From the NCBI GenBank assembly GCA_030272155.1, contig CP126204.1, positions 3,029,501 through 3,093,500 of the forward strand: a stretch of 64,000 bases of DNA. Direction: 5' to 3'. Within the stretch, counting starts at the first letter, position 1. The number at the start of each line of letters is the position of its first letter. The position numbers and the translations under genes were made by a program. Under the pieces are notes generated by a model, which did not search any database, had not been told where the DNA came from, and was given only the letters and a program-made list of their open reading frames with translations. The DNA comes from Tetradesmus obliquus. Its lineage: Eukaryota; Chlorophyta; Chlorophyceae; Sphaeropleales; Scenedesmaceae. Positions 1,522-64,000 of the stretch are shown piece by piece.

Positions 1522-4500
1522 ATGCCGATGCATTTACACGTGCTGCACCAGCACCAGGCACATGGCAGACACTTGAATCAATCTAACTGGCGCAGGACGA
1601 GCAGCAACAGCAGCTGCGGCATTGGCACACCTAGACGGCTGCTGGTGGTGTCAGCTGCTGCAGCAGCAGCACCAGCAGCACCAGCAGCCAGGCCAAAGTA
1701 TGAGCTGGTCACTGAGCGGGGCGTGGAATTTACTCCAGGTACATGCTTGTACTACAATTCTGCAATGTAACACACACCACATTGCCTTATAACAGATTCG
1801 CACCTTCTTTCACGCTTGGGCACAACGTCCTGAGGCTCAGCAGCTGACATGGATTGTGTACAAGTTGGTGCCATGCTACTGCAACACTCAGCTGCGCATC
1901 ATGTCACCCATGCTGCTGCTGCTGCTGCTGCTGCTGCTGCTGCTGCTGCTGCTGCTGCTGCTGCTGCTGCTGCTGCTGCTGCTGCTGCCAGGCACTGCCT
2001 TCTACCGTGCTGAGTCAGCGCAGGGGCGTGACCTGGCAGTGCTGGCTGCTGCCGTATACAGGCAGCAGCATGGCCGGCTAAGGGTGCTGGATGTGATGAG
2101 CGGCTCAGGCATGAGGGGGGCACGCTACCTCACACAGGTGAGCAGCAGCAGCAGCAGCAGCAGCACAAACGGCTGCAGGTGGTGGATGTGATGAGCGGCT
2201 CAGGCATGAGGGGGGCACGCTACCTCACACAGGTGAGCAGCAGCAGCAGCAGCAACAGCAGCATGTGCGGGTGTTTAGTATGCGCAGCTAGGTCGTGCGT
2301 GGGCTTTCCTTGCTGCGAGTTGGGTGCAGAAGCACCAGCAGCAGCACGGCGGCGCAGCAAATGATCCTGGTACAGGACAGACTTCGTGTAAAGCAATGAG
2401 CAGCAGCACCGTACTGCCGGCAGTGCAATTGGCCCCAGGGCCGACGCATGCTGCATCACAAAGTTACAGCAAGCAACAGCGGTCTGTCCACACCCTAATA
2501 GGCCAGGCCTCGGCGCTGTGGTCACCCACTCAACCTGCAGCACTGCAGCTGCGGCTCCAGTAGCCTTGTTACACCTGCACCAGCTCACAAGCAGACTGCA
2601 ATGCAACTGCAAACAGCACATGCCTCTCTGCAGCGTGTAATGTAGCTGTTTCTGTGTGCTGGTCCATGCCTGACCTTAATGCTGCAGGCGCATGCAGACC
2701 TGGTGTGGTGCAATGACTATGACACTAGGAACAACCTGGCCCTGGTGTTTAACCTGGTGCATGCCCTGGAAGGCCTGAGGAGCAGCAGCAGCAGCAGCAA
2801 TGTTGGTAGCAGCAGCAGCAGTTGTGCGAGCAGTTCCAGTGATGTGGTACAAGATCCTAACCAGGAGCAGCAGCAGGCAGCCACAGCTGTTCAGGGTGCT
2901 GAGCCTGGCAGCAGCAACAGCAGCAGCAGCAGCAGCAGCAGCAGCAGCAGCAGCGGCAGCAGCAGTATCATTGGTGCTGCACAGCAGTGGCTGGCGGCTG
3001 CTGAGCGTGTGCAGTACCCAGGCATCCGAGGCGATGTGCTACAGTGGCATAGCGGCGGCAGCAATAGCAGCAGCAGCAGCAGTAGCAGCAGCACAAAGCA
3101 GCAGCCGCCGCAGCAGCAGCAGCAACAGCAGCAGCCAGGGATATTTGAAGGCTCTACGCAGCAGCAGTGCTGCAGAGTGACTCATGTGGAGGCCAACAGG
3201 TGGGATTGCAGTTCAGTTGCAAGTCCATTGCTGTTCTCACCTCGGTTCTGTGCAGGTTGCGGGCTCCTACAGTTTTGGCACTCATCCGGCAACGTTGTCT
3301 GCATGTCTGACCTGTGCAGGCTGCTAGCTTCTACCTACCTTGCCGAGTGACTTTGACCTGGTTGACGTGATCAGTATTTGTAGCAAGTCAAGGACATACA
3401 ATTGCTTTCTGTGCATCTGCAGGCTGCTGGCTTCGACTTAATTGGCTGCGGATTACTTTGACCTGCTCAGTGTGGACAGCTATGCCGGTGTCTTGCCCTG
3501 CATCTGTTTCTGATCTTATGCTTCTGCAGGCTGCTGGCGTCCACCTACCTAGCTGAGGATTACTTCAACCTTGTTGACGTGGACAACTATGGCAGCGACA
3601 ACAGCCACCTGGCAGCAGCGCTGCTGGATGTTTTTGTTCTGCACATTAAACCTGTGGCATTGTGCAAATCTGCAGGCTGCTGGCTTCATCAATCATGGCT
3701 GACGAATAGAACTCCGTCAACGTGGACAGCTTGCATTGATCTCTTACTGCCCTGCCTCCGTACCTGATGTTGTCCTCGTGCAGACTGCTGGCGTCCACCT
3801 ACCTAGCTGAGGATTACTTTGACCTGGTTGACGTGGACAGCTTCGGCAGCGACAGCAGCCACCTGGCAGCAACTGAAAGCTGTTTTCCCTCGTTGCCGTG
3901 CAGGCTGCTGGCCTTCACCTGTTTGGCTGAGGATTGACCTGGTTTACGTGGACAGCTTTGGCAGCAACCAAAACCGTTTTTCTCATCTGATTGTTGTGCA
4001 GGCTGCCGGCTTCTACATATGTAGCTGATGACTTGTTTGACCTGCCCAACATGGACATCTGTGGCAGCAACTCACAATGTCTCTTCATCTCATTACATCT
4101 CAATAATACTGCGCAGGCTGCTGGCTTCCACCTATTTGTCTGAGGATTACTTTGACCTGGTTGACGTGGACAGCTTTGGCAGCGACAGCAGCCACCTGGC
4201 AACTGAAACTGCTGTTGTCCATCGTTGCCGTGCAGGCTGCTGGTTGATGTGGACGGTTTTTGCAGCAACTGAAACTGCCTTTTTTCCAGCTTATTTTCAT
4301 CTCAATGTTGCTGTGCAGGCTGTTGGCTTCGACATATTTGGCCGAGGATTATTTTGACCTGGTTGACGTGGACAGCTTTGGCAGCAACCCAAACCGCTGT
4401 TATCATTCATTGTTGTGCAGGCTGCTGGCTTCAACATATCCAGCTGAGGACTTGCTTTGACCTGCCCAACTTGGACACCTTTGGCAGCAACTCACTTTGC

Positions 4501-63600: not shown

Positions 63601-64000
63601 GCAGGTCCATCGGCATCACCTGCCCCATCCTGCCAGGTGAGGTGTTATAACAGGTTGTTGCATTGCACGTGTTACAACCGTCCCTCCAATGTTGGACGTG
63701 TTGATCGCTGTCTGTGTCAACAGAGCCAGCTTGCGTTGGGCGTGGTTGCTGCACAGAGCTGCTTTTCTTGTGGATATGAACACACTGCAACTGAACTTCA
63801 GCAGCAAACACCACTTCATACATCAAACTTGCATCTGCGAACTTGTGAGGCCCCCTGTACACACTCAACATTTGCATCCTGCAGGCATCATGCCCATCAC
63901 GATGTACGGCGGCTTCAAGCGCATGACCACCTTCTGCAAGACCATCTTGCACCCTGGACCCTGCAACATTCATACACAAAACCCCTTAAACACCCTTCAC
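60618..64000 (+). CDS. MTHFR: Methylenetetrahydrofolate reductase, N-terminal catalytic domain (runs off the right edge)
   Basis: Reduces 5,10-methylene-THF to 5-methyl-THF for methionine synthesis, using FAD. Exons in phase: 60618-60704, 60786-60917, 61502-61576, 62482-62603, 62872-63001, 63525-63636 and 63885 onward. Landmarks: [13 protein letters not shown] (with the catalytic Glu), [90 protein letters not shown]. This is the plant-like eukaryotic form. The start follows a plausible 5' leader. In the last visible exon the frame after TTFCKT reads [13 protein letters not shown], which no longer resembles the family (expected K-x-P), and I see no GT donor there, so the true boundary or the sequence near the edge is in doubt. 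Confidence 0.92.
61386..62002 (+). repeat. Three echoes of MTHFR exon 3
   Basis: Upstream: [10 protein letters not shown] at 61391-61422. Downstream: [19 protein letters not shown] at 61745-61790, and a more worn copy at 61957-62002 (ccagtggagaccctgggcaaccc). About 110 nt of intron after the donor (cacacacaaa.cagc...) is copied too. Confidence 0.85.
62747..62795 (+). repeat. Echo of the MTHFR exon 5 start
   Basis: After [20 protein letters not shown], against [15 protein letters not shown] at 62873. Three residue and three silent codon changes, so this one looks neutral. Confidence 0.85.
63058..63335 (+). repeat. Three echoes of the MTHFR exon 5 3' end
   Basis: [18 protein letters not shown] (63060-63096), a worn copy ending NEK|GTGCGG (63165-63197), and [19 protein letters not shown] then [15 protein letters not shown] (63262-63332). 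Confidence 0.88.
63459..63523 (+). repeat. (CTG)21 before the MTHFR exon 6 acceptor
   Basis: Pure CTG run continuing into CTGCAG|atcgac; the acceptor AG is the end of the repeat. Confidence 0.92.

Follow-up and report, generated by a model that had tools for sequence, protein, structure and literature searches.

The 64,000-nucleotide stretch of the Tetradesmus obliquus genome analysed here (contig CP126204.1, positions 3,029,501 to 3,093,500 of the forward strand; referred to below as the window, in whose own numbering features are given) carries seven genes in which the end of an exon recurs, with its splice site, in the adjoining intron. We refer to these partial-exon copies as echoes, acceptor-side when they repeat the start of an exon and donor-side when they repeat its end. 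They were recognised by Tandem Repeats Finder (TRF), self-BLAST and reading of the sequence, and bear out an earlier sequence-only reading that had placed them in seven genes, identified through Pfam as encoding a Trm1-like methyltransferase, a glycosyltransferase, an SPX protein, an ABC1 kinase, a CtpA-like protease, a thioredoxin and MTHFR. An automated list for the window holds 34 junctions and 69 echo hits, reduced to 27 junctions and 48 echoes when gene-model exons that are themselves echoes are taken out; as the 48 do not include the Trm1 (11) and glycosyltransferase (7) arrays, the figures of about 60 copies and 1-11 per array proposed in that reading also hold up. The Trm1 acceptor array is absent from the automated set because the gene model is split at that place, and the glycosyltransferase array is among the 15 of 83 junctions dropped by the strict filter, which kept 68. 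No junction of the large minus-strand gene at 40799-46480 appears in the automated window list.

The longest array lies in the Trm1-like gene (plus strand), where 11 acceptor-side copies in varied states of decay, spaced 83-146 bp apart, occupy 3320-4541, ahead of the working exon (start 4542; self-BLAST, Pfam TRM). In the same gene the exon end at 4638-4701 has a donor-side echo at 4823-4886 (offset 185, self-BLAST), and the exon start at 5281 has an acceptor-side echo at 5056-5153 (offset 223), the two differing by 14 synonymous changes and one nonsynonymous change. A 51-bp tandem array found by TRF at 6427-6707 (plus strand), over the donor of a predicted exon at 6331-6433, is a case with a small unit. 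In the minus-strand glycosyltransferase gene, the end of exon 19852-19961, with the peptide NSMDEVWVPTEF, is followed by a donor-side array of seven echoes with a period of ~107 at 18856-19851 (TRF); an acceptor-side echo of this exon is found at 20025-20079 (offset 110), and two acceptor-side echoes of exon 20618-20816 with a 112-bp period at 20889-21046 (TRF). The plus-strand SPX gene has six acceptor-side echoes of the exon start at 26243, each with its acceptor and with a period of ~123-128 bp, at 25425-26242 (TRF).

The ABC1 kinase gene (plus strand) has echoes at several junctions: two donor-side echoes of the end of exon 34065-34222 at 34293-34486 (offsets 124 and 262, self-BLAST), an acceptor-side echo of the exon start at 35848 at 35716-35803 (offset 125, sequence reading), three donor-side echoes of the exon end at 36008 at 36150-36702 (offsets 223, 455 and 685, sequence reading), an acceptor-side echo of the exon start at 37319 at 37036-37147 (offset 278, self-BLAST), and a donor-side echo of 37390-37487 at 37628-37725, 98 bp with 99% identity (self-BLAST). 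In this last pair the homology stops 3 nt past the donor, and the introns beyond look unrelated. The CtpA-like protease gene (minus strand) has three acceptor-side echoes of exon 49739-49885 at 49987-50300 (self-BLAST), and the thioredoxin gene (minus strand) has both an acceptor-side echo of exon 55536-55804 at 55858-55934 (offset 124, self-BLAST) and five donor-side echoes of the exon end at 56745, each with its donor, at 56177-56744 (period 111-112, TRF 95% matches). In MTHFR (plus strand) the exon at 61502-61576, which the gene model had drawn overlong, has an acceptor-side echo of its start at 61309-61417 (offset ~114) and two donor-side echoes with a 209-bp period at 61739-62001 (TRF, self-BLAST); three further donor-side echoes, of the exon end at 63001, lie at 63064-63343 (offsets 94, 194 and 332).

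We extended the survey to 344 kb, ~0.3% of the 104.66 Mb genome (17 contigs), consisting of the window and 280 kb in six other blocks, 50 kb apiece from C1-C4 and 40 kb apiece from C5 and C9. Gene models were made by a small gene finder trained on the sequence itself, and the pair counts below depend on these models, in which some genes are split, some exons overlong and some echoes called as exons. The finder gives a donor consensus of CAG/GTGAG and an acceptor consensus of TGCAG/G, with median lengths of 131.5 for exons and 228 for introns, and predicts 410 donors and 412 acceptors over all blocks, of which 166 have a hit and 135 remain after a complexity filter. The eight predicted proteins examined, seven from the window and one on C1, match the Pfam families expected (TRM, glycosyltransferase, SPX, ABC1, S41 peptidase with PDZ, thioredoxin, MTHFR and Clp protease), echo exons having been removed by hand from most of the eight before the search.

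Frequency was determined by seeking copies within 1.6 kb of junctions whose exons reach 100 nt and whose cores are complex. A local second copy is present for 79 of 491 testable junctions (16%), about one in six exon ends, while the same cores sought around other junctions gave a mean of 0.8 and a maximum of 2 in ten rounds. Control sites had local copies in 63 of 800 cases in intron interiors (7.9%, a count that takes in the echoes themselves), 35 of 800 in exon interiors and 69 of 800 in intergenic DNA (8.6%). The high density near junctions that the sequence-only reading had reported therefore stands against both the same cores sought elsewhere and the 4-9% of the controls, and it extends to the six other blocks, all of which contain echoes. 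The distribution is patchy and the window is the richest, with 27 strict echo junctions compared with 13 in C1, 11 in C5, 10 in C9, 5 in C4 and one each in C2 and C3; local duplication loci account for 22% of the window's bases and for 3.5-12.6% in the other blocks. Echo density may differ between chromosomal regions; the two poorest blocks are C2 1.00-1.05 Mb and C3 1.00-1.05 Mb. The C2 block has a higher GC content (0.617) and contains repeats ~1.1 kb apart within one long predicted exon. No echoes occur at the D1 protease locus (3.6 kb, C3). A fragment of 1fc6, the D1 protease of Scenedesmus obliquus, matches this genome at 94-96%.

When the local duplications are classified by position (95 loci with offsets of 300 bp or less, 5 of 100 having been dropped for longer ones), 68 lie at junctions, 14 are exon-only, 8 intergenic, 3 intron-only and 2 at gene edges. 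Random placement predicts 16-26% at junctions and 21-27% inside introns, a contrast that is somewhat overstated, since the null places one segment and the observed class is decided by either copy. Among the 16 young loci (at least 94% identical), eight are at junctions and five exon-only.

The copies lie predominantly on the intron side of the working exon. Of 275 donors, 42 have copies, which are downstream only in 38 cases, upstream only in one and on both sides in three; of 282 acceptors, 38 have copies, upstream only in 29, downstream only in three and on both sides in six. The description of echoes as taken from either exon end, with the splice site, and set on the intron side is thus confirmed, with 67 of 80 echo-bearing junctions having copies on that side only. 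This arrangement would allow splicing to pass over the echoes, provided that the first donor after and the last acceptor before the working exon are taken. Protein matches agree with the outermost copies being the ones put to use: the ClpR product, once its echoes are left out, can be aligned to the Clp subunit 7eko_L with no gaps; the ABC1 kinase model without echoes shares 99% identity with T. obliquus P0001 from end to end, apart from one extra residue; and the glycosyltransferase has 97% identity in its alignment to a T. obliquus protein, NSMDEVWVPTEF occurring once in T. obliquus models. Together with the 1fc6 match, the kinase and glycosyltransferase identities place the genome in T. obliquus or a very near relative. 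In-frame use of the copies is not favoured, because the nearest offset is divisible by three in just 16 of 68 strict cases. The ABC1 kinase P0002 of Scenedesmus sp. NREL 46B-D3 is without ~27 residues of the exon at window 37319-37484; this exon has echoes on both ends here, and the gap is possibly an echo-related annotation error.

Copied donors often rival the real ones in strength. For donors, the median difference in strength between echo and real site is 0.00, with 54 of 74 within 1.0 log unit, and 35 of 70 acceptors fall within the same limit; on average the real sites are stronger, by 1.23 for donors and 2.21 for acceptors. GT or AG is retained in 127 of 144 echoes, a proportion favoured by the search core, which contained five intron bases and is biased toward echoes with intact splice sites. 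That donors often as strong as the real ones are tolerated hints at exon definition in this short-intron alga.

The spacing of the copies points to a unit of preferred length. In the strict set (n=68) the nearest copy is 88-297 bp away, with a median of 127.5, and a histogram of minimum offsets for 100 loci has its peak at 100-130 bp (48 loci) and a second hump at 200-250. Unit sizes are thus less scattered than the 50-240 bp of the sequence-only reading, 43 of the 68 nearest copies lying at 95-145 bp; the 51-bp array is an exception with a short unit. Furthermore, the lengths of exon part and spacer trade off against each other (r = -0.72 in 25 simple pairs with offsets of 170 bp or less, 8 of 33 pairs with longer offsets of 185-269 having been omitted), and their sum is narrowly distributed, with a spread of 14.6 compared with 22.4 under random pairing (p = 0.0006). 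Unit length therefore looks fixed, with the splice site at a variable place within it, as would follow from tandem duplication across the junction. Whole units are seen in young cases: an 84-bp duplication at 100% identity is complete, with TGGAC common to both its ends, and in the ClpR gene on C1 an exon end is repeated as 118 bp x 4.6 at 98% identity with the whole unit kept.

Elsewhere the two halves of the unit have fared differently. At 557 junctions whose exons reach 100 nt, local copies exist for 14.1% (95% confidence interval 11.0-17.5) of the 26-mers taken 13-70 bp into the exon, and for 3.2% (1.7-4.7) of those 20-60 bp past the junction in the intron. The profile across the junction is 12-16% over the last 60 exon bp and 2-7% over the first 50 intron bp, with a second hump of 6-10% at 70-110 bp, where echoes sit. 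Across 30 bases on either side of the junction, real and echo copies in the strict set have mean identities of 0.892 (exon) and 0.611 (intron), against a baseline of 0.463 +/- 0.07 for unrelated introns. Exon identity reaches at least 0.85 in 84 pairs; the introns of 42 of these are less than 0.6 identical, and those of 20 are 0.8 or more. In 25 arrays of at least three copies, spacers resemble one another (0.70) more than they resemble the terminal flank (0.56, p = 0.006), and the exon parts show no such difference (0.89 and 0.88, p = 0.20); the unfiltered set of 32 arrays gives the same pattern. The exon parts are conserved among the echoes as well, at 0.905 compared with 0.591 for the intron parts (122 pairs, unfiltered set). 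A unit that simply straddles the junction, as originally proposed, is therefore not supported in that form; it does agree with the preferred spacing, and the intron half was probably once present, although it is often missing now. Random-breakpoint duplication with uniform decay does not yield a pattern in which exon halves are kept, intron halves lost and the terminal flank poorly matched; the loss being limited to the intron half, exon halves seem to have been held together afterwards, and the alignments point to some process that holds them. Diverged allelic or paralogous copies were considered as a source of the exon/intron contrast and set aside, as many-copy arrays do not suit two haplotypes.

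Substitutions were used to ask which copies are constrained. Between real and echo copies there are 135 synonymous and 93 nonsynonymous differences (44 pairs, the 22 two-site loci omitted). Changes private to one copy of an array are synonymous or nonsynonymous in a ratio of 26/12 for real copies and 54/71 for echoes, and fall at codon positions 1/2/3 as 4/7/27 and 32/37/57 respectively. The synonymous fraction is accordingly 0.68 in real copies and 0.43 in echoes (54/125), against a neutral expectation of 0.28 from the echo mutation spectrum. As judged from these substitutions, the working copies are clearly under constraint and the echoes nearer to neutral. Coding constraint on the echoes was therefore set aside as the source of the 135/93 bias, most of which the singletons place on the real copy, with some excess remaining.

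A tentative reading of these data, to which we give close to an even chance, is that tandem duplication of preferred length over exon ends is followed by exchange anchored in the exon and is tolerated through outermost-site splicing. Recurrent tandem duplication with a preferred unit of ~100-140 bp would occur in genes of this alga, and where a unit covers an exon end the extra copies would land in the intron. Splicing would take the outermost sites, and the copies, being ignored, could be near-neutral and survive. The unconstrained intron half of each unit would then drift away, while the exon halves would exchange, by expansion, contraction or conversion, with one another and with the working exon held by selection, giving arrays in which exon ends alternate with spacers. 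Exchange with the working exon is the simplest means of holding the exon halves, because the echoes are not clearly under coding constraint, and the signature of array expansion fits crossing over or slippage within exon parts. The exchange step, use of outermost sites through exon definition and near-neutrality are the parts of this reading that we infer.

Several observations weigh against it. No conversion tract was traced, and 98 bp at 99% identity beside unrelated introns, as in the ABC1 kinase pair, demands either a very recent exchange or copying that halted at the splice site. In the rank test of intron parts, 20 of 43 pairs fall in the best tenth of unrelated pairs and the other 23 outside it, and block C9, alone among the echo-bearing blocks, is without the exon/intron contrast (9.0% and 11.5%). 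Acceptor echoes are on average weaker than real sites, and the synonymous excess in echoes over neutral is significant (p = 0.0005), for which weak constraint on echoes or serial copying from a changing exon are possible explanations. Two of the six other blocks, C2 and C3, are almost free of strict junctions, the placement null is imperfect as noted, and 22 of 100 loci, with both donor and acceptor in the copies, were omitted from the pair and length tests.

The main rival, which we regard as unlikely, is a copying process specific to exon ends, in which exon end and splice signal alone would be copied and placed in the intron beside a freshly made spacer, for instance from an RNA template or through a staggered break that is filled in and joined with filler DNA. 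It would account directly for the end of homology 3 nt past the donor in the ABC1 kinase pair, for the poor match of spacers to the terminal flank and for the lower copy rate on the intron side of the junction (3.2%) than on the exon side (14.1%). A constant sum of exon part and spacer is not expected under it, however, and the whole unit, intron included, is kept in some young arrays. Ordinary random tandem duplication, with a junction-bound appearance created by short exons and introns and by purging of exon-internal events, seems improbable. Placed at random, a unit would cover a junction 26% of the time, so that many straddling cases are expected, local copies also occur in introns (7.9%) and intergenic DNA (8.6%), and 14 of 95 loci are exon-only and 8 intergenic; set against this are the 68 of 95 at junctions and 3 of 95 intron-only where 16-26% and 21-27% are expected (the contrast being somewhat overstated), the sharp length peak and the selective loss of the intron half. 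The weaker acceptor echoes, the absent contrast in C9 and the imperfect placement null led us to raise this explanation slightly, and to lower duplication followed by exchange from an even chance to just below it.

Selection of the echoes for a splicing or regulatory role, for instance as decoy sites giving unproductive transcripts, appears quite improbable. Echo donors do often equal real ones (median difference 0.00, 54/74; acceptors 35/70), exon parts are kept among the echoes too (0.905 compared with 0.591 for intron parts), and synonymous singletons are in excess in echoes, one Trm1-like echo having the 14/1 ratio described above. Nevertheless, real sites are stronger on average, the five intron bases of the search core favour intact sites, many Trm1 echoes have decayed, echo singletons are spread 32/37/57 over codon positions, and presence is patchy between blocks. 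An assembly artefact from collapsed or duplicated haplotypes is barely credible given the graded divergence between copies (72-100% in nearest pairs), an array with 12 copies and a genome in 17 contigs.

Other repeats occur in the window. A 605-bp tandem duplication, 83% identical, lies at 29713-30923 in a stretch without predicted genes and is directly followed by 17-bp minisatellites at 30903-31175; a further minisatellite (17 bp x 22) is at 17337-17713 in the glycosyltransferase gene region. CAG/TGC trinucleotide repeats are abundant, as at 1911-1988 and 46884-47053, and lie partly within predicted exons as poly-Ser, poly-Gln or poly-Ala. Of the echo arrays, young ones have the head-to-tail copies of one unit expected of a minisatellite; in many older ones the exon half alone is recognisably repeated.

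The growth of introns is commonly attributed to transposons or to slow drift. Countable copying of exon ends at a preferred distance would make such growth measurable strain by strain. If an intrinsic duplication process of ~100-140 bp acts together with exon ends as exchange anchors, intron growth would be reversible at about one-sixth of exon ends, with splice sites read across exons; we consider this broader proposal possible, though doubtful. The gene finder called echoes exons, and protein models of such genomes may therefore hold false repeats; the T. obliquus models compared here (ABC1 kinase, glycosyltransferase) are without them. The mean intron length published for T. obliquus, 462 bp, exceeds those of C. 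reinhardtii (270) and of three other Sphaeropleales (230-302 bp; PMC5966456), and echoes could contribute to this length.

Among the matches listed in the literature on repeats, duplications, introns, genome and splicing, there is no report of partial-exon echo arrays, and the systems that come closest differ in several respects. In tandem exon duplication, including mutually exclusive exons, a whole exon is copied with both splice sites; there too copied exon sequence stands in the adjoining intron, and the echoes differ in holding one end. Whole-exon duplication was rejected for them, since donor copies lie downstream and acceptor copies upstream and exon parts are mostly 20-100 nt; 22 of 100 loci held both donor and acceptor of the gene model. 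In the potato RdRp gene, a tandem duplication crosses an intron-exon boundary and carries the acceptor along (PMC4974935). The duplicated unit spans the junction here as well, though its intron half is often unrecognisable; the potato case is described as one event in one gene, in which the second copy provides a new intron and exon in the mRNA, while here many junctions are affected, at both exon ends, with 1-11 copies apparently unused inside the intron. PMC3443670 reviews how tandem duplication can give rise to introns, and the AGGT model of intron gain outlined there has in common with echoes that local duplication reshapes intron-exon structure. That model has the two copies of an exonic duplication on either side of a new intron, whereas echoes enlarge an intron already present and their spacers are unlike the adjoining exon. 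Spacers as copies of that exon were rejected on a mean rank of 0.54 (chance 0.5), with 7 of 42 pairs below 0.1.

New introns in Daphnia contain internal direct repeats ascribed to staggered breaks (PMC4202315), which is similar in that introns are lengthened by repeated local duplication; those repeats are described as internal to new introns, and the units here are exon ends with splice signals at a preferred spacing. Short direct repeats near splice sites, with a mean of 11.4 bp, have also been reported (PMC11782384). Introners are likewise a route to added intron sequence but form dispersed families (PMC9860276). A family of this kind was rejected, since the one unit searched, that of thioredoxin, matches its own locus alone in 104.7 Mb (very common words skipped), and window self-BLAST matches more than 2.5 kb apart appear to sit at trinucleotide-rich places. 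In Chlamydomonas and Volvox, tandem repeats of 1-50 bp are enriched toward intron ends (PMC3887541), and green-algal introns are thus repeat-rich toward junctions in both cases, although the accessible part of that survey, with its units of 1-50 bp, does not describe copied exon sequence. Recognition across the intron is the view taken for Volvox and Chlamydomonas (PMC4378016), whereas here the splicing machinery seems to disregard the copied donors and acceptors that lie closer to the centre of the intron. If so, strong intron-side copies that go unused would reveal a short-intron alga that reads its splice sites across exons, and this genome would provide a natural test of both intron growth and splice-site choice.

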